From NCBI GenBank assembly GCA_030710605.1, contig CP092879.1, positions 40,548,842 through 40,612,841 on the forward strand: a stretch of 64,000 nt of DNA, written 5' to 3'. Each line of letters starts with the position of its first letter. Position 1 is the first letter of the stretch. This stretch comes from Cordylochernes scorpioides (taxonomy: Eukaryota > Arthropoda > Arachnida > Pseudoscorpiones > Chernetidae). The position numbers and the translations under genes are program-made. The notes beneath the pieces were generated by a model that was given only the letters and a program-made list of their open reading frames with translations, was not told the origin of the DNA and did not search any database. Below are positions 16,174 to 50,900 of the stretch, in pieces.

Positions 16174-16887
16174 AAGCCAAGACCTCTTTTAAAAAAAATA
16201 GTATAATGTCTTGATTAAACGTACTAATTGTCATTTACTGAACTGTAGAAGTGTTTTAACATGGAGACAAAGATATGGTGTTCTCAGTGACCAATGAATC
16301 AGAGAAAATCTTGTGAATCTATGATTTGTCACGTTCATAGACATGTGAAACTGTCTTTAAAGCCGGGAGAACAATGAATTCTTAAATTTCATATCCTTAT
16401 AACTCACATTTATCTAACAACCTTCCTTTCAATATTTTAACAACTCTATATATAGGTATATCATTTTTAATTATTCTATTATATAGATCCCCCATTGTTG
16501 TCTGTCCAGATAACCCGATTTCGTTTTCTGTTAGGATTTGAAAGGATTTTTGTGAAGTGATTCCCTATAACTTGAAATTAAGCCCCAACATAAAAATAAT
16601 CCAGCCTTAAAGAGAAAACATAATATATAAGTAGTGATTAAGCTATTATTTGTGCGTGTGAATATATAAAAAAAGATGTTCTAAATGCCATACTTCATAT
16701 ATTCCCTTTACCATCTGCTTATCTTTTCAAAATTAAAAGAGAGAAAGAGAAAGACGGAGATTGAAATTACTTTGATCACAACGATTCTATATGGGTATAT
16801 ATATGGTTGAATAAAATTAATAGATAAAGTTATGAAAGTATATATATAAAATTACTTGAAAACTTTCTCCATAGATTGTATAAACGA
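16174..16887. other. AT-rich stretch, nothing recognised
   Basis: No supported gene. Small purine-rich tracts occur near 16735-16760. Confidence 0.4.
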
Positions 16888-17092
16888 TAAGGAAGAGTAA
16901 GGAGAAAAGATTTTTATTCAATTAAACTTGTGACAAGCTTTCGGGCAGTCACGCCCTTCAACAGGTAATAAAAAGAACAATTGACTATCAAATTGGAAAC
17001 AAACTGAGCTTTAAACAAAAATGATAGAACTGCAGCCTGGCCGCGAGAAAACGTGAATTCAGGAAAGTAATGTGAGGTGGGGGGGAGGGGGT

Positions 17093-17369
17093 TTATCCGG
17101 TTTTTAAGTTAATACATATATCATGATATTGTTTAGGTAAATCTATATGTCGATTAATACTGTCATTAGAAATGGATAAAATGGCCTCTATGATTAATCT
17201 CTGGTGTTTACTGGGAATGTTATTGTACAAGGTGGTGGGAGAATCTAAATTGAAAGAATGGCCAGTATTATGGGTGTGGTTGTATATGAAGGATCTGCCG
17301 TCTTTATTATTGATGCATCTACCATGTTCGATCATCCTGATGGCCACGGACCTACCTGTCTCACCTATG
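17093..17369 (-). pseudogene. GIY-YIG endonuclease fragment, left arm
   Basis: The frame reads (Y/N)IGETGRSVAIRMIEHGRC and continues through NHTHNTGHSFNLDSP to NLKTG before a stop. This is the C-terminal two thirds of the GIY-YIG domain, lacking the YSVSC part, which lies only in the centre of the palindrome and belongs to the right copy. Confidence 0.7.
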
Positions 17370-17371
17370 TT

Positions 17372-17737
17372 AGACATCCCATTACCCGCATACCTACCAC
17401 TGTTCGATCTTCTGGTGGCTCGGTCTATTCAGTCTCATGTAACGATTGTAGTGCAACCTACATAGGTGAGACAGGTAGGTCCGTGGCCATCAGGATGATC
17501 GAACATGGTAGATGCATCAATAATAAAGACGGCAGATCCTTCATATACAACCACACCCATAATACTGGCCATTCTTTCAATTTAGATTCTCCCACCACCT
17601 TGTACAATAACATTCCCAGTAAACACCAGAGATTAATCATAGAGGCCATTTTATCCATTTCTAATGACAGTATTAATCGACATATAGATTTACCTAAACA
17701 ATATCATGATATATGTATTAACTTAAAAACCGGATAA
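17372..17737 (+). pseudogene. GIY-YIG endonuclease domain of a Penelope-like element, right arm
   Basis: The frame includes GGSVYSVSCNDCSATYIGETG, cut here to 20 or fewer residues as SVYSVSCNDCSATYIGETGR, then IRMIEH and NHTHNTGHSFN. These are the signature parts of the Penelope-type GIY-YIG domain: Y-x-V/I-x-C-x2-C upstream of YIGETGR, followed by R and EH. About 110 residues are present, including the stop after NLKTG. The wider open frame begins at 17258, but its first 38 codons are antisense to the left arm and meaningless. The endonuclease would nick target DNA during retrotransposition; without a reverse transcriptase this fragment is non-autonomous. Confidence 0.75.
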
Positions 17738-17965
17738 CCCCCCTCCCCCCCACCTCACATTACTTTCCTGAATTCACGTTTTCTCGCGGCCAGGCTGCAG
17801 TCGTATCATTTTTGTTTAAAGCTCAGTTTGTTTCCTATTTTAATAGTCAATTGTTCTTTTTATTACCTGTTGAAGGGCGTGACTGCCCGAAAGCTTGTCA
17901 CAAGTTTAATTGAATAAAAATCTTTTCTCCTTACTCTTCCTTAAAGTATATATATGTTTTATAAA

Positions 17966-18522: not shown

Positions 18523-18861
18523 CTAGACGAATGGCCCGGGCAACGCCCGATTTTACCCGAGTGCGTATATATTTTAAAAATGTTTTAATTAAAATACTAT
18601 TCGTTACAATTATAAATTGGCGCCGTGGATGTCTCTCTTGTGAAACGTCCCGCCCCAAACTGTGTGTGTCTTGAAAATATAAAAATAAAAATGTGAACGA
18701 AAAATATGTCCAGGGTAGCCTAGTGGTCATGGCATCTGCCCGGTAAGCGGAAGGTCGTGGGTTCGATTCCCATCCCTTGACACTTTTTTTATTTTATCCA
18801 TTCTGACCAAAATCTATCCGTGAACTTCACACAGAGAGAATAAGGCAATTATATAAGTAGA
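18523..18861 (-). mobile_element. Mini-Helitron carrying a tRNA-Thr-like gene (339 bp)
   Basis: Read on the minus strand it starts TCTACTTATATAATTGCC (18861) and ends with the GC hairpin, CCATTCGT and CTAG (18523), inserted between A (18522) and T (18862). The 5' about 70 bp and the 3' about 100 bp (GACATCCACGGCGCC, AATTTATAATTGTAAC) are shared with the Helitron at 37167, but the cargo differs: here a tRNA-Thr-like gene in antisense orientation. The B copy is 38542-38895. Confidence 0.8.
18708..18782 (+). tRNA. tRNA-Thr-like gene (anticodon GGT), probably pseudo
   Basis: A cloverleaf can be drawn with an acceptor GTCCAGG/CCTTGAC (one mismatch), A box TAGCCTAGTGG, anticodon stem TCTGC/GCGGA with loop CCGGTAA, and T arm GTGGG-TTCGATT-CCCAT containing the B box GGTTCGATTCC. 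The anticodon is GGT. The base before the anticodon is C instead of the near-universal T, which suggests a pseudogene or a tRNA-like module. A T7 tract two bases downstream would terminate RNA polymerase III. In copy B (38728-38802) the anticodon stem has a mismatch (GCGAA). Confidence 0.7.
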
Positions 18862-19091
18862 TAATCCAAATTGTGCCTTATCACACACTATTTTTTTATT
18901 TGGCCTTAATACCTTGTGTTTATAATCTATGACGTTATGCCGGCGGCGCGCGCCCTTTGGCTGCCGGCGAGCACGTGACCTCCCTGTGCGCGCGCATCCG
19001 TGACAGAACCGGCCGGCCCATGACGGTCGTGACTATATATATAATGGATGGATAATAATATTAATATAAATTCACTGTGCAACGTAATAAT

Positions 19092-20267
19092 ATGCCACCG
19101 ATTGTAATTAAATCGACGATCGGACCAACCGGCGAGAAACTTTGCATAATCGAAGCCTCCTTAATAACGAAGATCCTAGAAAAATGTGGAATCGAGTATA
19201 AACTTGAGGAAACGGTTCAATCAAAGAAGAGAACTCGCGGCTCCCAATCGGATGACTCAAGATCGCCAACTAGGAGCGAGCGTAATCTGAAGACGCCTAG
19301 AATGGACATCGACGAACAAAGTCCCGCCACTGAAATTTCTCAACAAATGAACGTAGCTCACCCACCGCAAGACGATGAAGAAAATAACGACAACGATGGC
19401 CCATGGACCACAGTCACTAACGTGAAAAAACCGAGAATTCCTCCTGTTATTGCAGAAAATGTAGCAGATTGGAAGCTTCTTTGCCAAGAACTAAAAGGCT
19501 TGTGCACGGAACCATTCCAAGTCACGATTTCTGGCAAAAAGCACATAATTAAATCGAAAAACATAGGCGACTTCAAAAAAATCAGGGAGTATGTACAGAA
19601 AAATAATGGAGGACTACAGGAGGAAAAACCACTGAAAGTGGTATTGAAGGGGGTAACAACAGCCTTCAAAGAAGAAGACGTCGTAACTGAACTGGTCTCA
19701 ATGGGCTTCACTGAGGTCATTGTCAAAAGACTCCATAGACAATCGACCAAAATACCGATGAATATAGTTCTAGTAGAGCTACCGAAAAATGAACACAATA
19801 AACGAATCTATGGAATAACCGAAATACTTTACCAAAAAATAGTCGTGGAATCATTCAGGACTACAAAACGAGTGACCCAATGCTTTAACTGCCAGGGTTT
19901 TGGGCATGGCCAGCTAAACTGCTTTTTGAAGCCCAAATGCGTCAAGTGTGCTGAAGAACATCATTCGAAGGATTGTCCAAGAAAGTCGAAACAGCTCCCA
20001 CCAAAGTGCGCTAACTGTGGAGAGGCGCACACAGCCAATTACCGCGGATGCCCAAATTTTCCGAAGCCACAACAACAGCAGCTAAAGCCTCCCAGACAAA
20101 ACTCCTCTAACACCATACCTCAAGCAAGCTCCACTAAAACAGAAGAAGCAACTGTTGAAAAACTAAAGGCAAGTTACGCAGAAACTACAAAAAAGAAAAC
20201 TACTCGTTCTGACACCAGGGAACTGTACGAAAAGTTATTAGAAATTATCAAAACTTACTTACAATGA
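19092..20267 (+). CDS. Jockey-type ORF1 (gag-like RNA-binding protein)
   Basis: The protein has 391 residues from ATG 19092. An in-frame GTG at 19077 is not needed. The N-terminal third is charged and low complexity, with a QPEDDEEN-type acidic stretch. A pre-C2HC domain spans roughly residues 182-258 (KVVLKGVTTAFKEEDV to VVESFRTTKRVT). Three zinc knuckles follow: CFNCQGFGHGQLNC (CX2CX4HX4C), CVKCAEEHHSKDC and CANCGEAHTANYRGC, the usual set for Jockey/I-group gag proteins. It would coat the element RNA and deliver it to the nucleus. The stop overlaps the ORF2 start as ATGA, consistent with termination-reinitiation coupling. No frameshift or internal stop is seen. Confidence 0.9.
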   Translation: MPPIVIKSTIGPTGEKLCIIEASLITKILEKCGIEYKLEETVQSKKRTRGSQSDDSRSPTRSERNLKTPRMDIDEQSPATEISQQMNVAHPPQDDEENNDNDGPWTTVTNVKKPRIPPVIAENVADWKLLCQELKGLCTEPFQVTISGKKHIIKSKNIGDFKKIREYVQKNNGGLQEEKPLKVVLKGVTTAFKEEDVVTELVSMGFTEVIVKRLHRQSTKIPMNIVLVELPKNEHNKRIYGITEILYQKIVVESFRTTKRVTQCFNCQGFGHGQLNCFLKPKCVKCAEEHHSKDCPRKSKQLPPKCANCGEAHTANYRGCPNFPKPQQQQLKPPRQNSSNTIPQASSTKTEEATVEKLKASYAETTKKKTTRSDTRELYEKLLEIIKTYLQ

Positions 20268-22888
20268 AAGGAAAATTACCTTTAAAAATCGATTTCTGGA
20301 ATTGCAACGGAATCAAACTGAAAAAAGAAGAATTCCTAAAGTTTTTAGAAGAAAACTCAATAGACATGGCATTTCTCAGTGAAACACACTTAAAACCATC
20401 TGTCGACCTCAAACTCAGAAACTATCAGACAATAAGAGACGATAGAATCGTTGGAAGGGGCGGTGGAACGGCAATAATTCTAAAAAACTATCTTAAATAT
20501 AAAAAAGTGCTGATTCAAACATCTAACATGGAAAACACCACAATTCTAATGAAACCAGATGGAAGGGCAGTAGTGCAGATATCGTCAATATATAAGAAAC
20601 CCGATCTACCACTCCAGGAGGAAGATCTGAATCTCTTGTTAGAGAATAATCAATCAGTAATCGCTGCAGGAGACTGGAACTCCAAGCACCCTCTTTGGGG
20701 CTCAAGAACCTCCAATAATAGTGGAACCGTGCTTCATAATTTTTCCGAAAAAGAAAACCTGGACATTGTCGCACCTTCTTCACCCACGCACTACAGTCCT
20801 TTGGGAAATCCAGACTTTTTAGACATCGCAATTCTTAGAAACATCCCCTGGACTTCGAGGATTAAGACCCTGGATGCCTTATCTTCAGATCACCTCCCAG
20901 TAATCCTAGAGCTGACCTGCCCGAAGGATGAATTCACGACTAGGGCTTGCCGACTCACTAACTGGGTACACTTCCAACAAGACTTAATTTCCAGTACGCC
21001 TCCTAGAGTACCCTTGAAAACGGAAGCCAATATTGACTCAGCAGTGACCATAATAAATGATAAAATCTACAACAGCTACTCAAAAAACACAGTTATATCA
21101 TCCTCTTCATCAAAACAGAACCCCTCAACCAAGGCCTTGATAAAAAAAAAAAATAAAGCTCGTAAGAGATGGCAAGCAACCTGGGATCCAGCCCATAGAG
21201 CCATTTATTTAAACCTACAGGGAAAAGTTAACAAAGCCCTCAAATCCGACTCCACCGAGAACTGGAATCAATTCATACACAAGATTGAATCAAGCCCAAA
21301 GGACTTCTGGAGAAAAACAAAACCCATCAGGAAAAAAACGGAAAGGATCTCAAGTTTAGTAACGAACGGCAAAACCTTATTGACCGACAAAGAAATCGGA
21401 AATGAACTTGCAGAACACTTCTCCAACCAGTTCTCCAAGGAAAAAGAAGAAGACCAACCAAATATAACTTATAATCACCAACAAGAAAAAATGCTCACAA
21501 TGACGACACCAAATGAAGTCAAAGAAGTGATTAAATACTTAGCTAACCACAAAGCTCCTGGCCATGACAATATCACTCCGCAAATGGCCAAGAATCTTCC
21601 CATCAAATGGATTGTATTTCTAGCTGGAGTATTCAACGCCGCACTGCACTTGTGTTACTACCCCAAAGTCTGGAAGCATGCTATCATAATTCCAATTCCA
21701 AAAAAATCCGCTAAATTCCCTGAAGATCTAAGACCTATCAGCCTCCTCTCCACCATCGGCAAAATTTACGAAAGAATTATTCTACGTAGACTTCATATGT
21801 ACTTGGACAACTCTAATTTCATCATCCCGCAGCAATTCGGATTTAGAAGGGGGCATTCAACAACTCACCAACTCATTGCAGTTCTGGACTACATCCAGAT
21901 AAGAAGATCCCACAAGGAAGTGGTAGGTGCTGTCTTTCTAGATTTTGCGAAAGCATTTGATAAAGTTTGGCATAATGGCCTTATAAAGAAACTCACAAAA
22001 CACCAGTTCCCAAATGACATTATCAATTTTATGCAGAATTATCTACAGGGCAGGACATTTTCAGTCAAGCAAGGAAATTTTATAACTGAACCAAAGCCAA
22101 TCCAGACTGGAGTACCTCAAGGCTCTATCCTCGGACCCTACCTTTTCAATATTTACATTAATGACATCCCACTGCACTCTAAATGTAAACTTAAGCTCTT
22201 CGCAGATGACACAGCAATTTTATTCAACTCTAAATCAGTCAACCTATTGGTTACTCAGCTTCAGAGTTACCTATATGACATAATCAAATGGTGCGATGAG
22301 TGGAAACTAGACATTAACCCAACTAAGACTCAAGCAATAGTTTTTCCCCCAAGAGATAACAAAAAATTCAAGCCACAAACCAACTTGACAGTAAACTCAA
22401 GCACTATTAGTTGGGCCGACCATGCCAAGTATCTTGGTGTCACTTTGGATTCGAAATTAAAATTTAACCTACATGTCCAAAACACCATAAAAATGGCAAA
22501 GATAGCCAAAATATCTCTATCAAGCCTGCTTAATTTTAAAAGTAATTTAACAACAAAGCATAAATTCACCTTGTACAAAACCTGTATTCTACCCATCATC
22601 ACGTACGCACTACCAGTCTGGGGCAAATATATCACACCTACGGATAAAAAAAGAATAGATGCCTTCATGAGGATTTTCTTACGAACCACTATAGGAGCCC
22701 CATTCAATCTTTCAAACAAAATTCTCAAAGAAGATCTCAACCAGCCTAATATAGAAGAGATTTATCAAGACTCTGCTACAAGACTATTCTCGCAATTTCA
22801 AAAATCCTCAAATACAACTATACAAGAAATTGTTCAAAACCAAGGTGACCTCAGCCACCGAATCCGACGACCTGGACCCAATGGCTAG
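20264..22888 (+). CDS. Jockey-type ORF2 (endonuclease-reverse transcriptase)
   Basis: The protein has 874 residues. The N-terminal apurinic-like endonuclease occupies about residues 5-225, with FWNCNG, SETHL, GGGTAII, GDWNSKHPLWGS and the catalytic SSDHLPV. The reverse transcriptase spans about 420-690, with NHKAPGHDNI, RPISLLSTIGKIYERI, QFGFRRGHSTTHQ, FLDFAKAFDKVWH, GVPQGSILGP and the active-site FADDT near residue 646. The C-terminal part has a WGKYITPTDKKRID-like thumb region and no RNase H domain, as is normal for Jockey. It would nick target DNA and reverse transcribe the RNA in place. It starts within the ATGA overlap with ORF1 and is full length for the clade. Confidence 0.92.
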   Translation: MKGKLPLKIDFWNCNGIKLKKEEFLKFLEENSIDMAFLSETHLKPSVDLKLRNYQTIRDDRIVGRGGGTAIILKNYLKYKKVLIQTSNMENTTILMKPDGRAVVQISSIYKKPDLPLQEEDLNLLLENNQSVIAAGDWNSKHPLWGSRTSNNSGTVLHNFSEKENLDIVAPSSPTHYSPLGNPDFLDIAILRNIPWTSRIKTLDALSSDHLPVILELTCPKDEFTTRACRLTNWVHFQQDLISSTPPRVPLKTEANIDSAVTIINDKIYNSYSKNTVISSSSSKQNPSTKALIKKKNKARKRWQATWDPAHRAIYLNLQGKVNKALKSDSTENWNQFIHKIESSPKDFWRKTKPIRKKTERISSLVTNGKTLLTDKEIGNELAEHFSNQFSKEKEEDQPNITYNHQQEKMLTMTTPNEVKEVIKYLANHKAPGHDNITPQMAKNLPIKWIVFLAGVFNAALHLCYYPKVWKHAIIIPIPKKSAKFPEDLRPISLLSTIGKIYERIILRRLHMYLDNSNFIIPQQFGFRRGHSTTHQLIAVLDYIQIRRSHKEVVGAVFLDFAKAFDKVWHNGLIKKLTKHQFPNDIINFMQNYLQGRTFSVKQGNFITEPKPIQTGVPQGSILGPYLFNIYINDIPLHSKCKLKLFADDTAILFNSKSVNLLVTQLQSYLYDIIKWCDEWKLDINPTKTQAIVFPPRDNKKFKPQTNLTVNSSTISWADHAKYLGVTLDSKLKFNLHVQNTIKMAKIAKISLSSLLNFKSNLTTKHKFTLYKTCILPIITYALPVWGKYITPTDKKRIDAFMRIFLRTTIGAPFNLSNKILKEDLNQPNIEEIYQDSATRLFSQFQKSSNTTIQEIVQNQGDLSHRIRRPGPNG

Positions 22889-23115: not shown

Positions 23116-24149
23116 TAATGATAATGATCATAATGATGATGCGCGCGCATCCGTGACAGAACCGGCCGGCCGGCCCATGACGGTCGTGACTATATATGTT
23201 GATATTCGAAATTTTTATAAATATTTATGTTTATTTACAATATTAAAGGACCTCGTATACAGTGGCTTCCACCGCGGGAAAGACTTGGCCAAAGATGGAC
23301 CGCCAGAGTTCTTTCCTACAGAGAAGACAGGTCGATAAGATGGCTGGCATTGCCTACCTCAGGTCCAAGATGGTAGTTGTAGATGGTCGTCTTCTCAAAA
23401 GGGACAATTGAAACAATTATATTGACAAATAGTCAATATTACCTAAGACGAATGGGAATGTATACAATGATTCATGAGCGAGAAAGACTCTACCATCTTT
23501 CAAGGTCATCTTCCAAGCGAAGAGGGTGTCTTCTTGGACCTGGAGGGGATCGTTTTGGAGAGAGAAAGGTGTGCGAGAGTAAAATTACAAATTTTAGATA
23601 AGCATTCAGATATAACTGGATATATTTGAAGTATTTCAGCTCTTATATTTTATTATAAATTATTATATAAAGCAAGAAACATATCCTCGGGAAGAAGCCG
23701 CTTAATATTTTATTATAAAAGTAGAACTTAAGAGAGATATTAGCTAAACTTCTATCAATAGCAGTCTTTGAAAGGGCTATCGTTCAAAACAGTACAAAAC
23801 ATAGTGTTTTCAAATATTTTATTTAATAAGTTTTATTTACCCAATATTTCGATGGACCAATTTTCCATCTTTTACGAAATTTTTGTTTTGAAGCACACAG
23901 CAGGTCGCGGTGAGCCACAGACGTCTTACAAGTTTGTTGGGCGATAAACCATCTATGATATACATTTTAAACAAATTTAAATATAAACAAAAGAAAATCA
24001 ATGTAATATATATAGCAATTCAATTAATTAAAGTGAAATATATATAATATTTTTCAAAGAGAAATATATAATATGTATTACCTTTCATATTTGGCCAATA
24101 ACTAGGCATATATGTTGGATTTAAAGTTTTGAACTAGCGTATAACTTAT
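23116..24149. other. Non-coding region with one hammerhead-like relic
   Basis: The third copy of the GC-rich block (GCGCGCGCATCCGTGACAG) lies at 23138-23198, with an enlarged CCGGCCGGCCGG palindrome. On the minus strand about 23845-23890, GATGG...CCATC followed by GAAATATTGGG resembles the degenerate Penelope-type end at 2796-3169. No convincing gene; the open frames at 23153-23601 are unassigned. Confidence 0.4.
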
Positions 24150-24297
24150 GAAAAAGGCATCTCCTTATCGTGCAACTGAAGGTTTCTGATGGCTTGCGTC
24201 ATCTATCGGAATAAATATCAACTATTCTCGTTGACTTCTAATTATTCCAGAATTGGCCAATTACTCATTCTTGATTAATCAAGAAAAGCTAACCACG
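24150..24297 (-). repeat. Retrozyme fragment ending at the ribozyme cleavage site
   Basis: This segment matches the retrozyme unit of 26353-26952 from AAAAAGGCATCTCCTTAT to AGCTAACCACG. The match stops at the base corresponding to the predicted hammerhead self-cleavage position, so the ribozyme core is missing. The B copy is 47387-47533. Confidence 0.75.
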
Positions 24298-24886
24298 TAC
24301 GTTTTTTCACATAGTGTAAAACTGTTTGTTAAAATAGCGACGTTCGGCCTCTCAAAATATTACGTTTATTTTCAAATAAATTTTCGGATCAAATTCAATA
24401 TACGTTTCATCATTGTGCATTTAACCTGTGGTTTTCAATGAATTTCTCAACCTATTTTATACACTTTGGGTTAAGTAGGGCTATCCTAAATAGAGTGCTC
24501 AGAAATGTAGGTAAATATCGGAGCGTGCAACCCTAGTTAACCTAAGGCATCAATAATGCGGAACACCAAACAGTGCCGTTTATGGCGCACGCTAGGCTGC
24601 CTGCCTGCATGCCTGGTGCTATAAGGAGGTCGGTCTCTAAGTCTGTTCCACATTCTGAGAAAGCACGTCGAGGTTCCGTGAAATAATCTCCGGGTAGCGT
24701 GGTCACTTACTTGTGGCAAATTGGGAGTCTTTGATGATTGATGTCTCTCCTGTTGAATCTCAATCGACTGACCTGTTTCATTCTTGCAGGACACTTCTTT
24801 CTTTCTTTCTTTAAGAGGGTCACTAAAGTACTTTAGAGTTTATTTTTTTTAATATAAATTATTCCAATATGTATTCAAACTAGAGT
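24298..24886. other. Unassigned, includes a weak ORF on the minus strand
   Basis: The minus frame at 24537-24794 (85 residues, with FLRMWNRLRDRPPYS) faintly resembles the C-terminal F-x-R-x-x-x-x-W-N motif of some LINE reverse transcriptases. It is interrupted by a 4 bp indel in copy B, so coding is unlikely. A TTTC tetranucleotide run lies at 24797-24812. Confidence 0.35.
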
Positions 24887-25167
24887 AGAACTTCCAGAAG
24901 AGGACTTTCCGCCTAGGGAACACCTCTCCACAAAGGACAGTTTTCATTGTCAAAAAATTACCTTTTAATATAAATTATTCCATTATGTTTTCAAACTACA
25001 GTAGAACCTCCATGAGAGGACATTACGGCTAGAAGACACCTCTCTATAAAGGACAGTTTTCATTGACAAAAAATTACCATTTCAACAACTATCCGGTAAG
25101 AGGACACCTCTTCATAAAGGACACTTTTACTCTGTGACTAGGTAGCCTTTACAGATAGGGTTTACTG
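24887..25167. repeat. Two tandem MITEs with CAGTAGAACC-type termini
   Basis: The first partial copy runs 24887-24985 and the second 25003-25167. They share GTAGAACCTCC, AGGACATT, ACACCTCTC.ATAAAGGACAG and a right end AGGGTTTACTGTA. The termini and TA context fit pogo/Tigger-type non-autonomous elements. The B copy is about 48114-48397. Confidence 0.65.
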
Positions 25168-25699
25168 TATATCGTTTTTCTATAGATACACATAGGGATA
25201 CCTGTAGAGAACGATATCCAAATTTTACTTTGGAATAATAGCGATTGTTTATTGAGCCTCAGTTAAGATATCTCTGGTCAATTATCGTAAGTATGACTTC
25301 TCTCTTGACAAACTGTGTGTATTTATCGATATCTCTTAGTGGAAGACAAATATTCTAATTTCCACAGTTAAATCTTAGATATCTTATTACCTATCATGAG
25401 CGGCCATTTATTTGAACGACCTACTCTATATTAAGTTGGTACATAATTATTTTTGAAGCCTTTTTGGGTCTTTTTATTTTAATTTACGTTTTTTAAAATT
25501 ATTATTATAATGAGAATACACTCCTTTCGCTATATTATATGCGTGGCCACTTCGAAAAAGATATTTTCACATAGCAACTTTCTTAATAATGATCCATCCT
25601 AATATGTAGGAGGGTACACAATTGTTCTTGAATTTAGAAATTGCTTTTGGAAGACAGATAAAAGTACACTTATAAATAAATGATGAGCCATAGCCCCAT
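25168..25699. other. AT-rich stretch, nothing recognised
   Basis: No gene or terminal repeat identified; same content in copy B (48398-48923). Confidence 0.4.
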
Positions 25700-25856
25700 T
25701 TGATTACTTACACTCGCTGGTGGGGTTGGACTTTTACAAGAATCGGGGGCCATTGGAGCATTTTTTTTAATCAGAAAAAAAGTGCTCAATGCGGGAATCG
25801 AACCCGGGTCCTAGCGGTCGAAAAACCAATGGTTCAGACCATCCTTCCACCGTCCT
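25700..25856 (-). repeat. SINE head and body on the minus strand
   Basis: The complement has the tRNA-like head with GGTTCGATTCCCGC and TGGTCTGAACCATTGG, followed by the body. The 3' tail is missing. The B copy is 48926-49083. Confidence 0.75.
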
Positions 25857-26352
25857 CTATTTACATCGTTAAAAATCGATTTGATATCAACTATAAATGT
25901 AGTGTAAGAATTCTATGATGGTAAAAGTGACAGAGATTTTTAAAACCTTAAATATTCCATGTCATCTTAGTAGAAAAAGAAAGATACCCCTTCCGCCAAG
26001 TAAATCTATCAGTAGATGTACTTTCCAATGACAGTCCAATTATAAACGAAGCCTTTTAAAAAAGAAAGTTGGAGATTAATTTATCAAAAGTTTCAAATAA
26101 AATGAGAGGAAAAATGAAACTAATTGAATTTTGTTTAAATTTGATAAATTAGTTTGCTGGGAGAAATGTTTCTAATTGATCTTCACCTTGATTAGTTTAT
26201 TGTGCTTTTTCTGTCTCTATTTAGGTAGAAAAAGTTTTAAACTTTTAAGTAAAAAATATTTTTTAGAAACTTTTGATATTGTTCTTTATACTTAAAAAAA
26301 ATATATATATATATATATTTCTATATAAATATTCAATATATATATATATATT
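25857..26352. other. AT-rich stretch with an (AT)n tract
   Basis: Nothing coding is visible. The AT run at 26300-26350 differs in length from copy B. Confidence 0.4.
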
Positions 26353-26491
26353 AAGAAAAAGGCATCTCCTTATTGTGCAACTGAAAGTTGCTGATGGCTG
26401 GCGCCATCTATCGGAATAAATATCAACTATTCTCGTTGATTTTTAATTATTCCTGAATTGGCCAAATACCCATTCTTGATTAATCAAGAAA

Positions 26492-26545
26492 AGCTAACCA
26501 CGGACGCGTTTCGAGCTGTTGGCCCTCATCAGCGTGGTGCAAGCT
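26492..26545 (-). ncRNA. Hammerhead ribozyme 1 (type I)
   Basis: In order on the minus strand: stem I AGCT...ACCACG, core CTGATGA, stem II GGGC with loop CAACA and GCTC (one G-U pair), GAAA, stem III ACGCGT, cleavage triplet GTC, then stem I partner CGTGGT and AGCT. All invariant core bases are present. Cleavage is predicted between the complements of 26503 and 26502. Confidence 0.88.
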
Positions 26546-26833
26546 GTACCTCAACGACCAAAAAAAAAATTGGTCATTAAGGCATCCTGAAAAATCATGA
26601 AACGGGTTGTTAAGGCCAGAATTGCGTGAGGACGCTACACAATGTGAAAAAATAGTACAAATGTAACATTGTACTGGGATAAGGTGCATAGATTAAGAGA
26701 AAGGCATCTCCTTATTGTGCAACTGAAAGTTGCTGATGGCTGGCGCCATCTATCGGAATAAATATCAACTATTCTCGTTAATTTTTAATTATTCCTGAAT
26801 TGGCCAAATACCCATTCTTGATTAATCAAGAAA

Positions 26834-26887
26834 AGCTAACCACGGACGCGTTTCGGGCTGTTGGCCCTCATCAGCGTGGTGCAAGCT
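26834..26887 (-). ncRNA. Hammerhead ribozyme 2 (type I)
   Basis: The same fold as the ribozyme 342 bp upstream, with a fully Watson-Crick stem II (GGGC/GCCC). Stem III is only the self-complementary ACGCGT, too short for a stable hairpin, so two ribozymes may pair through it. Cleavage is predicted between the complements of 26845 and 26844. Confidence 0.9.
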
Positions 26888-26959
26888 GTACCTCAACGAC
26901 CAAAATAATTGGTTATTAAGGCATCCTGAAAAATCATGAAACGGGTAGTTATATATATA

Positions 26960-27143
26960 TAGTAGAACCTCCATGAAAGGACATTCACGTTAGAGGACAC
27001 TTTTCTACAAAGGGCAGTTGTTATTTGCAAAATTATCTTTTTTACTATTTAGCAACTCTCCGGTAAGAAGACACCTCTCTCTAAAGGACACTTTGACTCT
27101 GCAATTAGGGTCCTTTACTGTATATTTTATTGGTTCTACTGTA
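26960..27143. repeat. MITE with GTAGAACC termini
   Basis: The left end TAGTAGAACCTCC and right end GGTTCTACTGTA are inverted repeats. The interior repeats AGGACA and ACACCTCTC wording seen at 24887-25167. It interrupts the right end of the retrozyme. The B copy is about 50121-50301. Confidence 0.75.
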
Positions 27144-27443
27144 TATATATGTGTCGTAATATCACGTGCAGAAATGTATCTTATAGAAATATATAAAGAA
27201 TGATAGCCTCTGTGTGTGGAAGTATAGGGAGAGGAAAGAGAAGGTTGGCTAGTCAGATCACACCCCTATTCGACCACGTGTCCTGCCTTCTGAAATGACA
27301 TTTCGGGGGAACTGGGATTATTTACCCCTTTGCGGTCACTATTTTAGCGTACTGAGTATAGTTTAAAATAGTCTGAATATGATTATCAAGGTATAGTCCG
27401 AACTGACCGATTGTTGAAGACTCTTTGCCCAGTAAGCAATATA

Positions 27444-27603
27444 CAGTTAAACCTGTCTATATCGCCCCCTCTTGGGATTCACCAAAATTGGGTGCTATAG
27501 AGAGGGGGTGCTATAGACAGGTCACTTTTAATGTAAATCGCATCGTACTACGTATTTAAAATGGGGCGCTATTTAGAGGGGGCGCTATAGACAGGTTTAA
27601 CTG
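27444..27603. repeat. 160 bp MITE with CAGTTAAACC termini
   Basis: Perfect-looking inverted termini CAGTTAAACCTGTCTATA and its complement enclose GGGGGCGCTATAG-type blocks, flanked by TA on both sides. Typical of pogo/Tc1-superfamily MITEs. The B copy is 50609-50768. Confidence 0.85.
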
Positions 27604-27735
27604 TATATAAGACGCACAATTTCCTTTATAAATTTCATTGAAACAATATATTTAGCTTATCACCCCAGTCCATAACATATTATCGGTGATAGAATATACG
27701 CTTCAACACTAGTTTGGACAAGTTAAGACAAAAAG

Positions 27736-27790
27736 CCAGCTCTATATACGATGGTTTCGGGCTATGTCCCTCATCAGTACAGGGGCAGCC
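27736..27790 (-). ncRNA. Second hammerhead ribozyme family, copy A
   Basis: On the minus strand: stem I CTGTA, core CTGATGA, stem II GGG with loop ACATAG and CCC, GAAA, stem III ACCATCGT, triplet GTA, and stem I partner TATAG. In this copy the stem III palindrome is broken by one base relative to copy B (ACCATGGT). Only one repeat of the surrounding element is visible. Confidence 0.75.
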
Positions 27791-28532
27791 TCGATTTCAT
27801 GATATCTTACGAGGGGAATTATGAAATCGGTCGAATTTACCAAAAAGGTGTGAAAGCTGGTGAAACGCGGCAGTGCCAATTTTCAGGCCATAATACAACA
27901 TAAAGTTGCAGGGGGATTTATTTTTTAAGGGAGAGAGGTGCTCCATTTGGTATATATATAAGGAGATACTAATTATTACCCATTAGTATCTCCATAAATA
28001 TATTATTAAATCTATCATTTTGTTTCATTTCAAAATATTTATTTTTCGAATTATTTCACTACTTTAGAGTAATAAAAAATGATACAATTATAATGAATAA
28101 TATTTGTTAAAAACATTTTTATGGCAAAAAATAATTGGAAAGAAACCAATATAAACCGGATATTAATTATAAAAACTATATCAACTGATTATTTATATTA
28201 TGCTTATTGTACATATTGCCAGACACTTCTTTCTTTTGTATAGTTATTTTTTCTTACTTTCTCATTGTTAACATCATATGACTATTCTATTCACGGCCTA
28301 AAATTAGTGCGTATATATGTATAGACAAATGTAAAGGCATACATGTATGACAGCGCAAGTGTCCCTAGGGGGACATAGCGCTTTAAATTGATATACAATA
28401 AAAATGTCATTTGATTTGAAAAATATTTTTATTTTATTCATATATGCGCAAGTTAAAATTTACTCAAATATATAAATCATGGGCATTTCTCAGGTCATGC
28501 GGATTTTTAAGATTAATAATTTTATAGGTAAA
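27791..28532. other. Non-coding, includes an inverted copy of the 6735 repeat
   Basis: Probably includes the body of the second hammerhead element up to about 27960. The segment 28318-28386 is the reverse complement of 6735-6800. No gene. Confidence 0.45.
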
Positions 28533-28882: not shown

Positions 28883-28982
28883 NNNNNNNNNNNNNNNNNN
28901 NNNNNNNNNNNNNNNNNNNNNNNNNNNNNNNNNNNNNNNNNNNNNNNNNNNNNNNNNNNNNNNNNNNNNNNNNNNNNNNNNN
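28883..28982. other. Assembly gap of 100 N
   Basis: Exactly 100 N, the usual placeholder for a gap of unknown size. Both sides are the ends of overlapping versions of the same locus. Confidence 0.98.
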
Positions 28983-33803: not shown

Positions 33804-36063
33804 CATATAATATTAACAAGAAGAAAGAGAGAAAAAAGAACGGTGTACAAATGAAAGAAGTGTCTGGCAATATGTACAATCAGCATAATTTGAATTATCA
33901 GTTTCTTAAAAGATATTTGGTGCTATTGTATAATATATAATTCAAAATATATCTACAAAAAGTATTGAATTTAATATACATTTCTTTACTGGAAATAAAA
34001 ATACTTGGATCTGTTACTACTAAATTATTGTCGATTTTATAGCCTTGAAAAACAGGACAATCTAGTAAAAGATGTATTGAGGTTTGTTTCTCATGTCCAT
34101 AACCATGGTTATCATGGCCTGTACCATATGTACTAGGAATGATTTTTAAAAAGAGGGATCTGACGCTTGACCAATTTGTTTAAGGGAAAGTTTTAGGTGC
34201 ATGAGAATAGCTCGATTCCATTTCTTCTCGACACATTTTTAGGCTGAATTCTTATTCAAAATTTCAGTCGTTGCACCTTCAAGGTAGAGCGACTTCAAGG
34301 ACAGTTTGTTGATCGGGCTATTGTTTTAGCGTCTGTTAATTATATGAGTCCTAATACACCTGGTAATCAACTGGTTATTAACTCCGCCTTTGCCGGTCCC
34401 AAGCCCGGATGAAAAAGGAGGTGGGGAGCAATAACAAGCTCACTAAAAAACTTGAGCTCAGCTGGCCCGGCTGATAGTACCCTGTAAGGGCTCCTAATCC
34501 AGGGATACATGATGAGCAGTGTTTGTACTCCATGTTAGGAGCGGCTGCACATGGCGTCTGTTCCTCATGTCAGAGGCGGCCATTTCTTTTGGAGCTAAGT
34601 CGGCCTGCCACTGAATAGTGCTCCCAGTCTTAATGACAAAGGCAGACGCATTCTACTTCGCCTAATTTCCCCGGCAGACACCATCAAAAGTCTCTACAAG
34701 CTTGATACCGTATTATAATTGAGTGGAGATGAGAAAGACTGGTTATTCATCATAATTAACGGCATAGGGCGTATTTTTATAAGCTTTTATTTAACTTACC
34801 TACATGTCTGTTTAAGAATTTCGTAATCAATTTTTAAAATAATTTCAGACTATCTAGAAACCTTAAAATTTGCACACTCGTTCAATTCTAATAACAATGC
34901 AATTATAAAAAAAATTTAAGATGCCAAGATCGATAGGAAGTATGTTTAATTTCTCTTTTTAATGAATTGTCATCATTAATAAGCCTTTTCTTGTATCCTT
35001 CTTGCAATTTTCAAATAAATAGATACCATAGACTCAAAACAGAAGTTTGATGTGTATAATTGCTATTTTTCAATTGAGATAACATATTTTGTTGTTAATA
35101 AAAAGGGTTAAAACTGTGTATCTCTCTATGTTCTTCTTTTAAGTTTCTTTGATAAAAAAGTTATGTATTTGCATTCAAACTAGGTCTTGTCTGGTTTACG
35201 GAAACATTGAAACATCTATACAACCGACTATATCCAAAGGTTACGTAACAATATAAATGCAAAAGATATTTCTTTTTCATAAAAAGCGCGAAATCTTTTC
35301 GCCTTATGATTTCGCGCTTTTTGTGAATTCGCTCACCAGTCGATTATATAAGCCAAGACCTCTTTTTAAAAAAATAGTATAATGTCTTGATTAAACGTAC
35401 TAATTGTCATTTACTGAACTGTAGAAGTGTTTTGACATGGAGACAAAGATATGGTGTTCTCAGTGACCAATGAATCAGAGATAATCTTGTGAATCTATGA
35501 TTTGTCACGTTCATAGACATGTGAAACTGTCTTTAAAGCCGGGAGAACAATGAATTCTTAAATTTCATATCCTTATAACTCACATTTATCTAACAACCTT
35601 CCTTTCAATATTTTAACAACTCTATATATAGGTATATCATTTTTAATTATTCTATTATATAGATCCCCCATTGTTTTCTGTCCAGATAACCCGATTTCGT
35701 TTTCTGTTAGGATTTGAAAGGATTTTTGTGAAGTGATTCCCTATAACTTGAAATTAAGTCCCAACATAAAAATAATCCAGCCTTAAAGAGAAAACATAAT
35801 ATATAAGTAGTGATTAAGCTATTATTTGTGCGTGTGAATATATAAAAAAAGATGTTCTAAATGCCATACTTCATATATTCCCTTTACCATCTGCTTATCT
35901 TTTCAAAATTAAAAGAAAGAAAGAGAAAGACGGAGATTGAAATTACTTTGATCACAACGATTCTATATGGGTATATATATGGTTGAATAAAATTAATAAA
36001 TAAAGTTATGAAAGTATATATATAAAATTACTTGAAAACTTTCTCCATAGATTGTATAAACGA

Positions 36064-37157
36064 TAAGGAAGAGTAAGGAGAAAAGATTTTTATTCAATTA
36101 AACTTGTGACAAGCTTTCGGGCAGTCACGCCCTTCAACAGGTAATAAAAAGAACAATTGACTATTAAAATAGGAAACAAACTGAGCTTTAAACAAAAATG
36201 ATACAACTGCAGCCTGGCCGCGAGAAAACGTGAATTCAGGAAAGTAATGTGAGGTGGGGTGGGGGGGGGGGGGTGGGGGGGGGGGGGGGGGGGGGGAGGG
36301 GGTTTATCCGGTTTTTAAGTTAATACATATATCATGATTTTGTTTAGGTAAATCTATATGTCGATTAATACTGTCATTAGAAATGGATAAAATGGCCTCT
36401 ATGATTAATCTCTGGTGTTTACTGGGAATGTTATTGTACAAGGTGGTGGGAGAATCTAAATTGAAAGAATGGCCAGTATTATGGGTGTGGTTGTATATGA
36501 AGGATCTGCCGTCTTTATTATTGATGCATCTACCATGTTCGATCATCCTGATGGCCACGGACCTACCTGTCTCACCTATGTTAGACATCCCATTACCCGC
36601 ATACCTACCACTGTTCGATCTTCTGGTGGCTCGGTCTATTCAGTCTCATGTAACGATTGTAGTGCAACCTACATAGGTGAGACAGGTAGGTCCGTGGCCA
36701 TCAGGATGATCGAACATGGTAGATGCATCAATAATAAAGACGGCAGATCCTTCATATACAACCACACCCATAATACTGGCCATTCTTTCAATTTAGATTC
36801 TCCCACCACCTTGTACAATAACATTCCCAGTAAACACCAGAGATTAATCATAGAGGCCATTTTATCCATTTCTAATGACAGTATTAATCGACATATAGAT
36901 TTACCTAAACAAAATCATGATATATGTATTAACTTAAAAACCGGATAAACCCCCTCCCCCCCCCCACCTCACATTACTTTCCTGAATTCACGTTTTCTCG
37001 CGGCCAGGCTGCAGTTGTATCATTTTTGTTTAAAGCTCAGTTTGTTTCCTATTTTAATAGTCAATTGTTCTTTTTATTACCTGTTGAAGGGCGTGACTGC
37101 CCGAAAGCTTGTCACAAGTTTAATTGAATAAAAATCTTTTCTCCTTACTCTTCCTTA
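36064..37157. mobile_element. Penelope-like palindrome, copy B
   Basis: Arms 36064-36581 and 36671-37157 correspond to 16888-17943. The GIY-YIG fragments are at 36304-36580 (minus) and 36583-36948 (plus), with one Tyr to Asn change near the C-terminus (QNHDI instead of QYHDI) in both arms. Confidence 0.8.
36257..36300 (+). repeat. Poly-G tract (about 44 bp)
   Basis: An almost pure G run broken by three T or A bases. In copy A the same position is a run of about 14 bases, and the mirrored arm at 36948-36962 has only about 12 C. It may form G-quadruplexes, and the length may be a sequencing or assembly error. Confidence 0.8.
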
Positions 37158-37166
37158 AAGTATATA

Positions 37167-38005
37167 TCTACTTATATATTTGCCTTATTCTGTCTGTTTG
37201 TCTGTTTGAAGCTCACGGATGGGATTTTACATAACCATCGGTGGTTCAGTGGTAGAATGCTCGCCTGCCACGCGGGCGGCCCGGGTTCGATTCCCGGCCG
37301 ATACATTTTTTTTTTTTTTTTTACAATTTTTAAAACTCATTTATATATTATACAAGAATGACATCCACGGCGCCAATTTATAATTGTAACAAATAGTATT
37401 TGAATAAAAGCATTTAATCGGGTAAAACCCGGGCGTTGCCCGGGTCATTCGTATATAATAATTGTATAAACGAATGCAAGACAAAATCACCGCGAATGTT
37501 TCTTTTTTTTAAGGCAATTTCTTTTTAAGGCAATTATCGTTATTTATCGTTAATTTTTGTTTCGATTTTATTGAAAAAAAAAACGATATGGTGCCTTTAA
37601 AAAATGATCTTTATTAATATGCAGTTTTCTATTTAGTCAATATACCTAAGTTCATGTTGCAAATGTAATTATCTCTATCGATTTAGTAGGTGAAATGCAA
37701 AAAGAAAATCGACATGATTAAATCTTTATGAAAATTCACATTTTTATTTTTATATTTTCAAGACACACACAGTTTGGGGCGGGACGTTTCAAAAGAGAGA
37801 CATCCACGGCGCCAATTTATAATTGTAACGAATAGTATTTTAATTAAAACATTTTAAAAACACACAGTTTGGATCGGGACGTTTCACAAGAGTGACATCC
37901 ATGGCGCCAATTTATAATTGTAACAAATAGTATTTGAATTAAAACGTTTTTAAAATATATACGCACTCGGGTAAAACCCGGGCGTTGCCCGGGCCATTCG
38001 TCTAG
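37167..38005 (+). mobile_element. Composite Helitron with tRNA-Gly cargo (839 bp)
   Basis: The element starts TCTACTTATATATTTGCC and ends with hairpin, CCATTCGT and CTAG at 38002-38005, inserted into GTATATA/TATGTTTT, which is intact in copy A at 17952/17953. An internal hairpin terminus at about 37427-37450 has lost its CTAG (GTCATTCGTATATA), and a second 3' region follows with duplicated GACATCCA.GGCGCC blocks. This suggests that transposition read through a broken terminator to the next one. Confidence 0.82.
37235..37305 (+). tRNA. tRNA-Gly (GCC) inside a Helitron
   Basis: The 71 nt sequence is a nearly perfect animal tRNA-Gly: A box TGGTTCAGTGG, anticodon stem-loop CTCGC-CTGCCAC-GCGGG with GCC, B box GGTTCGATTCC, T arm CCGGG/CCCGG. 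Only the two outermost acceptor pairs are mismatched (CC at the 5' end against AC at the 3' end). A run of about 18 T follows and would terminate RNA polymerase III. It lies in the same orientation as its Helitron. Function is doubtful because of the acceptor changes. Confidence 0.85.
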
Positions 38006-38541: not shown

Positions 38542-38895
38542 CTAGACGAATGGCCCGGGCAACGCTCGATTTTACCCGAGTGCGTATATATATTAAAAAT
38601 GTTTTAATTAAAATACTATTCGTTACAATTATAAATTGGCGCCGTGGATGTCTCTCTTGTGAAACGTCCCGCCCCAAACTGTGTGTGTCTTGAAAATATA
38701 AAAATAAAAATGTGAACGGAAAAATATGTCCAGGGTAGCCTAGTGGTCATGGCATCTGCCCGGTAAGCGAAAGGTCGTGGGTTCGATTCCCATCCCTTGA
38801 CACTTTTTTTATTTTATCCATTCTGACCAAAATCTATCCGTGAACTTCACACAGTGAACTTCACACAGAGAGAATAAGGCAATTATATAAGTAGA
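38542..38895 (-). mobile_element. tRNA-Thr-bearing mini-Helitron, copy B
   Basis: Same as 18523-18861, with a 15 bp tandem duplication of GTGAACTTCACACAG near 38845. Confidence 0.75.
38728..38802 (+). tRNA. tRNA-Thr-like pseudogene (GGT), copy B
   Basis: As 18708-18782, with an extra mismatch in the anticodon stem (TCTGC/GCGAA). Confidence 0.6.
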
Positions 38896-46063: not shown

Positions 46064-47386
46064 GCACTCTATTCATTAGATGTGTTTGTGAAATGGATCC
46101 TATATTTCAGATTTTTTCACAAGCATTTTCGATATTGCTGTTTGCAATTTATCTCCATTTTGCTGAAAGAAAATTCATTACATTGAGTTTACAAACAGTT
46201 GGGGCCTCTATTCATTCATGAGTAAACCTCGCTCGAACACTACACAGGCGAAGCCGGGTCCAGTCGGGTAAAACCCGGGCGTTGCCCGGGCCACTCGGCT
46301 AGTATAATAATAATAATAATAATTTTAGATAATTATTATCATTAGATAATGATAATGATCATAATGATGATGCGCGCGCATCCGTGACAGAACCGGCCGG
46401 CCGGCCCATGACGGTCGTGACTATATATGTTGATATTCGAAATTTTTATAAATATTTATGTTTATTTACAATATTAAAGGACCTCGTATACAGTGGCTTC
46501 CACCGCGGGAAAGACTTGGCCAAAGATGGACCGCCAGAGTTCTTTCCTACAGAGAAGACAGGTCGATAAGATGGCTGGCATTGCCTACCTCAGGTCCAAG
46601 ATGGTAGTTGTAGATGGTCGTCTTCTCAAAAGGGGCAATTGAAACAATTATATTGACAAATAGTCAATATTACCTAAGACGAATGGGAATGTATACAATG
46701 ATTCATGAGCGAGAAAGACTCTACCATCTTTCAAGGTCATCTTCCAAGCGAAGAGGGTGTCTTCTTGGACCTGGAGGGGATCGTTTTGGAGAGAGAAAGG
46801 TGTGCGAGAGTAAAATTACACATTTTAGATAAGCATTCAGATATAACTGGATATATTTGAAGTATTTCAGCTCTTATATTTTATTATAAATTATTATATA
46901 AAAAGCAAGAAACATATCCTCGGGGAGAAGCCGCTTAATATTTTATTATAAAAGTAGAACTTAAGAGAGATATTAGCTAAACTTCTATCAATAGCAGTCT
47001 TTGAAAGGGCTATCGTTCAAAACAGTACAAAACATAGTGTTTTCAAATATTTTATTTAATAAGTTTTATTTACCCAATATTTCGATGGACCAATTTTCCA
47101 TCTTTTACGAAATTTTTGTTTTGAAGCACACAGCAGGTCGCGGTGAGCCACAGACGTCTTACAAGTTTGTTGGGCGATAAACCATCTTTGATATACATTT
47201 TAAACAAAATTAAATATAAACAAAAGAAAATCAATGTAATATATATAGCAATTGAATTAATTAAAGAGAAATATATAATATTTTTCAAAGAGAAATATAT
47301 AATATGTATTACCTTTCATATTTGGCCAATAACTAGGCATATATGTTGGATTTAAAGTTTTGAACTAGCGTATAACTTATGAAAAA

Positions 47387-47533
47387 GGCATCTCCTTATC
47401 GTGCAACTGAAGGTTTCTGATGGCTTGCGTCATCTATCGGAATAAATATCAACTATTCTCGTTGACTTCTAATTATTCCAGAATTGGCCAATTACTCATT
47501 CTTGATTAATCAAGAAAAGCTAACCACGTACGT
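47387..47533 (-). repeat. Retrozyme fragment, copy B
   Basis: Counterpart of 24150-24297, ending at the same ribozyme cleavage position. Confidence 0.75.
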
Positions 47534-49654
47534 TTTTTCACATAGTGTAAAACTGTTTGTTAAAATAGCGACGTTCGGCCTCTCAAAATATTACGTTTAT
47601 TTTCAAATAAATTTTCGGATCAAATTCAATATACGTCTCATCATTGTGCTCATACTTTAACCTGTGGTTTTCAATGAATTTATCAACCTATTTTATACAC
47701 TTTGGGTTAAGTAGGGCTATCCTAAATAGAGTGCTCAGAAATGTAGGTAAATATCGGAGCGTGCAACCCTAGTTAACCTAAGGCATCAATAATGCGGAAC
47801 ACCAAACAGTGCCGTTTATGGCGCACGCTAGGCTGCCTGCATGCCTGGTGCTATAAGGAGGTCGGTCTCTAAGTCTGTTCCACATTCTGAGAAAGCACGT
47901 CGAGGTTCCGTGAAATAATCTCCGGGTAGCGTGGTCACTTACTTGTGGCAAATTGGGAGTCTTTGATGATTGATGTCTCTCCTGTTGAATCTCAATCGAC
48001 TGACCTGTTTCATTCTTGCAGGACACTTCTTTCTTTCTTTCTTTAAGAGGGTCACTAAAGTACTTTAGAGTTTCTTTTTTTAATATAAATTATTCCATTA
48101 TGTATTCAAACTAGAGTAGAACTTCCAGAAGAGGACTTTCCGCCTAGGGAACACCTCTCCACAAAGGACAGTTTTCATTGTCAAAAAATTACCTTTTAAT
48201 ATAAATTATTCCATTATGTTTTCAAACTACAGTAGAACCTCCATGAGAGGACATTACGGCTAGAAGACACCTCTCTATAAAGGACAGTTTTCATTGACAA
48301 AAAATTACCATTTCAACAACTCTCCGGTAAGAGGACACCTCTTCATAAAGGACACTTTTACTCTGTAACTAGGTAGCCTTTACAGATAGGTTTTACTGTA
48401 TATCGTTTTTCTATAGATACACATAGGGATACCTGTAGAGAACGATATCCAAATTTTACTTTGGAATAATAGCGATTGTTTATTGAGCCTCAGTTAAGAT
48501 ATCTCTGGTCAATTATCGTAAGTATGACTTCTCTCTTGACAAACTGTATTTATCGATATCTCTTAGTGGAAGACAAATATTCTAATTTCCACAGTTAAAT
48601 CTTAGATATCTTATTACCTATCATGAGCGACCATTTATTTGAACGACCTACTCTATATTAAGTTGGTACATAATTATTTTTGAAGCCTTTTTTGGTATTT
48701 TTATTTTAATTTACGTTTTTTAAAATTATTATTATAATGAGAATACACTCTTTTCGCTATATTATATGCGTGGCCACTTCGAAAAAGATATTTTCACATA
48801 GCAACTTTCTTAATAATGATCCATCCTAATATGTAGGAGGGTACACAATTGTTCTTGAATTTAGAAATTGCTTTTGGAAGACAGATAAAAGTACACTTAT
48901 AAATAAATGATGAGCCATAGCCCCATTTGATTACTTGCACTCGCTGGTGGGGTTGGACTTTTACAAGAATCGGGGGCCATTGGAGCATTTTTTTTAATCA
49001 GAAAAAAAGTGCTCAATGCGGGAATCGAACCCGGGTCCTAGCGGTCGAAAAACCAATGGTTCAGACCATCCTTCCACCGTCCTCTATTTACATCGTTAAA
49101 AATCGATTTGATATCAACTATAAATGTAGTGTAAGGATTCTATGATGGTAAAAGTGACAGAGATTTTTAAAACCTTAAATATTCCATGTCATCTTAGTAG
49201 AAAAAGAAAGATACCCCTTCCGCCAAGTAAATCTATCAGTAGATGTACTTTCCAATGACAGTCCAATTATAAACGAAGCCTTTTAAAAAAGAAAGTTGGA
49301 GATTAATTTATCAAAAGTTTCAAATAAAATGAGAGGAAAAATGAAACTAATTGAATTTTGTTTAAATTTGATAAATTAGTTTGCTGGGAGAAATGTTTCT
49401 AATTGATCTTCACCTTGATTAGTTTATTGTGCTTTTTCTGTCTCTATTTAAGTAGAAAAAAAGTTTTAAACTTTTAAGTATAAAATAATTTCTAGAAACT
49501 TTTGATATTGTTCTTTATACTTAAAATATATATATATGTGCAACTGAAAGTTGCTGATGGCTGGCGCCATCTATCGGAATAAATATCAACTATTCTCGTT
49601 GATTTTTAATTATTCTTGAATTGGCCAAATACCCATTCTTGATTAATCAAGAAA

Positions 49655-49708
49655 AGCTAACCACGGACGCGTTTCGGGCTGTTGGCCCTCATCAGCGTGG
49701 TGCAAGCT
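49655..49708 (-). ncRNA. Hammerhead ribozyme 1, copy B
   Basis: Core CTGATGA, stem II GGGC/GCCC, GAAA, ACGCGT and GTC are all intact. The G-U pair seen in copy A is a G-C pair here. Confidence 0.9.
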
Positions 49709-49994
49709 GTACCTCAACGACAAAAAAAAAATGTTCATTAAGGCATCCTGAAAAATCATGAAACGGGTAGTTAAGGCCAGAATTGCGTGAGGACGCTACA
49801 CAATGTGAAAAAATAGTACAAATGTAACATTGTACTGGGATAAGGTGCATAGATTAAGAAAAAGGCATCTCCTTATTGTGCAACTGAAAGTTGCTGATGG
49901 CTGGCGCCATCTATCGGAATAAATATCAACTATTCTCGTTAATTTTTAATTATTCCTGAATTGGCCAAATACCCATTCTTGATTAATCAAGAAA

Positions 49995-50048
49995 AGCTAA
50001 CCACGGACGCGTTTCGGGCTGTTGGCCCTCATCAGCGTGGTGCAAGCT
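49995..50048 (-). ncRNA. Hammerhead ribozyme 2, copy B
   Basis: Identical in core to 26834-26887. Confidence 0.9.
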
Positions 50049-50900
50049 GTACCTCAACGACCAAAAAAATTGGTTATTAAGGCATCCTGAAAAATCATGA
50101 AACGGGTAGTTATATATATATAGTAGAACCTCCATGAAAGGACATTCACGTTAGAGGACACTTTTCTACAAAGGGCAGTTGTTATTTGCAAAATTATCAT
50201 TTTTACTATTTAGCAACTCTCCGGTAAGAAGACACCTCTCTCTAAAGGACACTTTGACTCTGCAATTAGGGTCCTTTACTGTATATTTTATAGGTTCTAC
50301 TGTATATATATATGTGTGTCGTAATATCACGTGCAGAAATGTATCTTATAGAAATATATAAAGAATGATAGCCTCTGTGTGTGGAAGTATAGGGAGAGGA
50401 AAGAGAAGGTTGGCTAATCAGATCACACCCCTATTCGACCACGTGTCCTGCCTTCTGAAATGACATTTCGGGGGAACTGGGATTATTTGCCCCTTTGCGG
50501 TCACTATTTTAGCGTACTGAGTATAGTTTAAAATAGTCTGAATATGATTATCAAGGTATAGTCCGAACTGACCGATTGTTGAAGACTCTTTGCCCAGTAA
50601 GCAATATACAGTTAAACCTGCCTATATCGCCCCCTCTTGGGATTCACCAAAATTGGGTGCTATAGAGAGGGGGTGCTATAGACAGGTCACTTTTAATGTA
50701 AATCGCATCGTACTACGTATTTAAAATGGGGCGCTATTTAGAGGGGGCGCTATAGACAGGTTTAACTGTATATAAGACGCACAATTTACTTTATAAATTT
50801 CATTGAAACAATATATTTAGCTTATCACCCCAGTCCATAACATATTATCGGTGATAGAATATACGCTTCAACACTAGTTTGGACAAGTTAAGACAAAAAG

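Follow-up and report, generated by a model that had tools for sequence, protein, structure and literature searches.

Do the tandem hammerhead motifs in this stretch of Cordylochernes scorpioides DNA mark a retrozyme, how would such an element be cut, and how did its copies come to lie where they do? We utilized a descriptor for type I hammerheads to scan the whole 64-kb window (the complete stretch of 64,000 nucleotides analysed here), with 200 dinucleotide shuffles as a control, identifying six motifs, all on the minus strand and with CTGATGA starting at 26532, 26874, 27777, 49695, 50035 and 50942. The shuffles contained a mean of 0.01 motifs, two of the 200 having one, and a relaxed scan allowing one core mismatch, run with no shuffle control, returned the same six sites. 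Owing to a probable haplotype overlap within the window, the six amount to roughly three distinct sites, which fall into two sequence types (Table 1).

Table 1 Positions in the window of the putative retrozyme arrays, their predicted parts and related sequences
Feature	Position	Strand	Basis
Retrozyme array A	26346-26951	minus	direct repeats at spacing 342, BLAST, sequence
342-nt monomer of array A (predicted circle)	26503-26844	minus	between both predicted cuts; circular fold
Hammerhead A1, stem II with a G-U pair; predicted cut 26503/26502	26483-26548	minus	descriptor and sub-threshold Rfam HH9
Hammerhead A2; predicted cut 26845/26844	26825-26890	minus	descriptor and sub-threshold Rfam HH9
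Palindromic helix III of A1, ACGCGU	26504-26509	minus	sequence, dimer energy
Palindromic helix III of A2, ACGCGU	26846-26851	minus	sequence
Array B, 28 bases missing at low-coordinate edge	49537-50112	minus	BLAST, descriptor, alignment
Array B monomer between predicted cuts, 340 nt	49666-50005	minus	descriptor
Hammerhead B1; predicted cut 49666/49665	49646-49711	minus	descriptor; limits by analogy with A1
Hammerhead B2; predicted cut 50006/50005	49986-50051	minus	descriptor; limits by analogy with A2
Copy C, older and incomplete insertion of the unit, without hammerhead core	24140-24301	minus	BLAST, alignment, ends
Copy C in right contig, identical, probably other haplotype	47371-47532	minus	BLAST, ends
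Second hammerhead-like motif (doubtful)	27735-27805; right-contig twin 50900-50970	minus	descriptor

Structure and classification of the repeat

Array A repeats a 342-nt unit about 1.76 times and is inserted in a TA-rich tract. Each unit holds a complete core of type I topology, reading on the minus strand CTGATGA, a 4-bp stem II (GGGC/GCTC in A1 and GGGC/GCCC in A2), GAAA, a short helix III and a GTC triplet. Stem I comprises 6 bp in both units (ACCACG/CGTGGT), with an internal loop and an outer AGCT/AGCT helix extending it. The two predicted cuts lie exactly 342 nt apart by the descriptor positions, and the junction of the predicted circle reads ACGCGUC followed by CGUGGUUAGC. The unit has a GC content of 40 %, the window one of 35 % with a CpG o/e of 0.81. 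No ORF in array A rises above chance, the longest ATG ORF of 69 codons being equalled in 136 of 500 shuffles; that of array B has 52 codons. The preliminary description had proposed a tandem pair of complete hammerheads in a retrozyme of this length, with no ORF in the 342-nt interval between the cuts: the cores, stems and cuts are all present, the interval is exact, and the statement on ORFs is right in substance.

Animal non-LTR retrozymes, in the passages of Cervera and de la Pena 2020 (PMC7229834) that describe them, are tandem repeats of 170-400 nt, non-coding and low in GC, which contain type I hammerheads and form self-paired circles. Array A resembles them in its type I tandem arrangement, size, low GC and self-paired circle, a likeness judged by the published description, and it lies within the limits given for the class (non-coding repeats of about 150-450 bp with GC below 45-50 %), whereas the type III hammerheads and 600-800 nt units of plant LTR retrozymes differ from it in both respects. 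Target-site duplications in the animal class, when present, exceed 4 bp; there is no clear one at array A, where the candidate TATATATATA is low-complexity sequence, and a simple pattern search for Pol III A and B boxes found none for the retrozyme. The animal retrozyme architecture put forward beforehand is supported by the size, type I topology, tandem dimer, GC content, self-paired circle and chance-level ORF, and we conclude with high confidence that the arrays represent an animal non-LTR retrozyme, a non-autonomous and non-coding retroelement. In animals, retrozymes offer the genome a simple way of encoding circular RNAs.

A covariance-model search, which the preliminary description had named as a check, gave a divided answer. 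Rfam at gathering thresholds returned no hammerhead across the whole window and only three tRNA matches, whereas a scan of 23800-27300 under an E-value limit placed Hammerhead_HH9 (gathering score 52 bits) below threshold at both array A sites, with 26.5 bits (E = 0.0013) at A2, 24.5 bits (E = 0.0056) at A1 and zero non-standard pairs in the two alignments. The absence of any covariance-model hit, which the preliminary description would have taken as a refutation, holds at the curated threshold only. These matches count as support since they coincide with both descriptor sites of the array. The empty result at gathering threshold would also suit a chance resemblance inside an ordinary satellite repeat, a reading rendered extremely improbable by the near absence of motifs from shuffled windows, the circle fold (z = -6.8, below) and the retrozyme-like size and composition of the unit. 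Covariation in the four hammerheads of arrays A and B lent no support, since the arrays are probably alleles, the four are thus not independent, and the single difference between them is one-sided.

The hammerhead core pattern had no matches in viral contigs. Two matches in bacterial contigs, where about nine would be expected by chance (by arithmetic with equal base frequencies), were rejected as relatives, both being without a matching stem I by eye. Array A had no match to plasmids.

Folding of the predicted circle and the palindromic helix III

The minimum free energy of the 342-nt circle is -105.4 kcal/mol, where its shuffles average -69.7 (sd 5.25; z = -6.8) and none of 200 reaches so low a value; for the 340-nt circle of array B z is -7.0, again without any of 200 shuffles folding as low. 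Both circle folds contain stem I with its outer helix as well as stem II; circles of the opposite strand fold to -82.5 and -80.5 kcal/mol, values that have no shuffle baseline of that strand. The linear 69-nt hammerhead fragments are not more stable than their shuffles (z of 1.04 and 0.04, with 174 and 94 of 200 shuffles folding as well), which counts against the retrozyme as the best explanation. In the minimum-energy folds, linear and circular, the core GAUG bridges the cut site by pairing with CGUC, a modelled pairing which would have to open in a working hammerhead, while the centroid of the linear fragments contains helices I and II alone, without that pairing.

A point absent from the preliminary description is that helix III is of the dimer type. 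The segment between GAA and the cleavage base is the palindrome ACGCGU, which within one hammerhead forms one A-U pair closing a CGCG loop and between two hammerheads can pair at all six bases, giving a double hammerhead with a 6-bp helix; this one-pair helix III with a palindromic tetraloop, A[CGCG]U, is present in all four hammerheads of arrays A and B. By the nearest-neighbour model, A2 paired with itself as a double hammerhead reaches -42.9 kcal/mol, close to an unconstrained dimer minimum of -43.4 kcal/mol with slightly different pairing, and a single hammerhead reaches -11.7 kcal/mol with the one-pair helix III and -17.6 without helix III. Since ACGCGU is all there is of helix III and does not suffice for a lone hammerhead, efficient cutting should need the paired double form, a need which would explain the importance of tandem units. 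The modelled energies suggest that the retrozyme likely cuts as a double hammerhead.

Comparable arrangements have been described. The axolotl hammerhead HHR_Amex1 and a newt satellite share the one-pair helix III and palindromic tetraloop, are active as dimers (dimeric axolotl constructs cutting much more efficiently) and have units of 330 and 350 bp, compared with 342 in the present invertebrate host (PMC7229834); the CpG o/e of 0.81 and the PRE_C2HC domain of a nearby LINE likewise suggest an invertebrate. Palindromic helix III and proposed dimers are described for Aedes and other hammerheads, the Aedes one being inactive in assay, and the repeat-type hammerheads of Aedes aegypti resemble ours in their described palindromic helix III and loop III (PMC3088659). 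More generally, a weak helix III is reported to block cutting of the monomer and not of the dimer in many type I hammerheads (PMC7761336). The pDo500 satellite of Dolichopoda cave crickets likewise places a hammerhead in an arthropod tandem repeat, with single and double forms proposed, although its unit is about 500 bp and helix III stays inside a single strand in the double form suggested for it (PMC2837043). The present palindromic helix III would add a further case, in an invertebrate, of a hammerhead whose cutting should rely on units in tandem.

The short palindromic helix III would also fit a piece of a Penelope-like element, the terminal repeats of which have minimal type I hammerheads acting as dimers, and the window does contain GIY-YIG-like ORFs (Pfam E = 0.03, below cut-off). 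We consider this origin very unlikely, however, since the internal loop and outer helix of stem I here set it apart from the minimal form, described as free of helix III and of stem I-II loop elements (PMC7761336), since the tandemly repeated unit is short and non-coding, and since the relaxed scan found no hammerhead in the regions of those ORFs.

The second hammerhead-like motif is doubtful as a hammerhead because of its low Rfam score and unfavourable energies. It has a GUA triplet and a palindromic helix III ACCAUGGU, broken in the left copy as ACCAUCGU; HH9 scores its right copy at 13.8 bits (E = 0.91), and the hammerhead fold of -2.8 to -5.9 kcal/mol compares with a minimum of -24.6, the double form of -26.6 with one of -60.6.

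Insertion loci, probable haplotypes and ends

Positions 28883-28982 are a gap of 100 N between two contigs, across which the left (4499-28882) and the right (28983-52053) match in order. We identified nine matching blocks above 300 nt, six of which are collinear (881-4835 nt, 97.3-99.1 % identity) and interrupted by different insertions in the two contigs, the remaining three being an inverted block of 487 nt (98.4 %) and two 418-nt repeats (96.4 %). Around arrays A and B 56 of 5730 aligned sites differ, plus 102 gap columns, and the arrays themselves differ at 7 of 576 sites, including 1 of 132 in the hammerheads. Given this collinear overlap, arrays A and B are probably one insertion seen in two haplotypes, a real tandem duplication being the possible alternative. 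The preliminary description had treated B as a separate copy with the same structure: the structure is indeed kept, but the copy is probably an allele and not independent evidence. The G-U versus G-C difference in stem II, which it took to be of compensatory type, proved to be a change on one side only, with G-U in A1 and G-C in the other three units. Conservation of the hammerhead above the rest of the unit was considered and set aside, the differences being too few.

That array A is a dead fossil, a true retrozyme by origin at a locus now neither transcribed nor cut and making no circle, is quite possible, if short of probable. It would accord with the lack of a promoter signal by simple Pol III patterns, the decay of copy C to 91 % without a core and the 28 bases by which array B falls short at one edge; the full core and pairs kept in all four hammerheads of arrays A and B argue against it, as does the single haplotype difference among the 132 hammerhead sites compared.

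As a working retrozyme, the element would be transcribed and its transcript cut twice by its own hammerheads, presumably in the dimer form; a host tRNA ligase (RtcB-like) would close the cut monomer into a circle, and an autonomous element, Penelope-like or LINE, would supply the reverse transcriptase that copies the circle for more than one lap and inserts a dimer-like array. These steps, from transcription and double cutting to closure by a tRNA ligase and copying by the enzyme of another element, follow the published model, with which none of the present results conflicts and of which the copying back into DNA is, in the sections cited, itself still a model (PMC7229834; PMC7761336). Copying that went past one lap of the circle and then stopped early would leave an array of 1.76 units.

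The window holds two insertion loci, A and C, each also present in the right contig. Copy C is 91.4 % identical to the unit along 162 nt and has flanks unrelated to those of array A. In transcript sense the 3′ ends of copy C and array A agree to about 9 nt, a comparison made less precise by the AT tract next to array A. At the 5′ side the match runs to 24297, the counterpart of 26502, which is the first base past the predicted cut; beyond it come one mismatch and three bases that still match, after which the likeness is no longer clear, although MAFFT can force 6 of 12 columns to agree. The 5′ end of copy C thus lies at the predicted cut or within 4 nt of it, where a random end would fall at about 9 of 342 positions by our own arithmetic. 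There is no target-site duplication at copy C. As a single event, with no such duplication and examined after seeing the data, this end is a lead and not proof.

We tentatively put forward, as a rather unlikely reading, that the insertion ends record the life cycle of the element, both copies starting from a fixed 3′ priming site, with A representing about 1.76 laps of a circle and C having stopped at the predicted cut on a self-cleaved linear monomer as template. If true, copy C would be a genomic trace of ribozyme cleavage in a living animal, and linear and circular RNAs would both be reverse-transcribed. The reading is testable genome-wide, since family members that all share one 3′ start and have their 5′ ends at the cut would tell whether the template is linear monomers, circles or both.

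Neighbouring elements

A LINE with long open frames occupies 19065-22888, including an 891-aa endonuclease/reverse transcriptase frame (RVT_1, E = 2.4e-43, with endonuclease domains) and PRE_C2HC in its first ORF. It is without a counterpart among the right-contig blocks above 300 nt and is possibly a polymorphic insertion. A second reverse transcriptase ORF lies at 58921-60861 (RVT_1, E = 3.9e-37), and the GIY-YIG-like ORFs, similar below the Pfam cut-off to that end of Penelope-like elements, lie at 17249-17737 and 36460-36948 in near-palindromic DNA (16879-17952 and 36055-37166). All of these are candidate helpers for the retrozyme, none being tied to it by evidence.

Short elements with inverted ends, presumably MITEs by their appearance, are found at 26958-27150 and 27446-27600, one of them directly adjoining the retrozyme array. 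Long 32-bp tandem arrays (54816-57345 and 60066-63606) flank a reverse transcriptase ORF. The tRNA matches above the Rfam gathering score are at 18709-18781, 37235-37305 and 38729-38801, the first and last of which are near identical and may be the heads of tRNA-derived SINEs or alleles.
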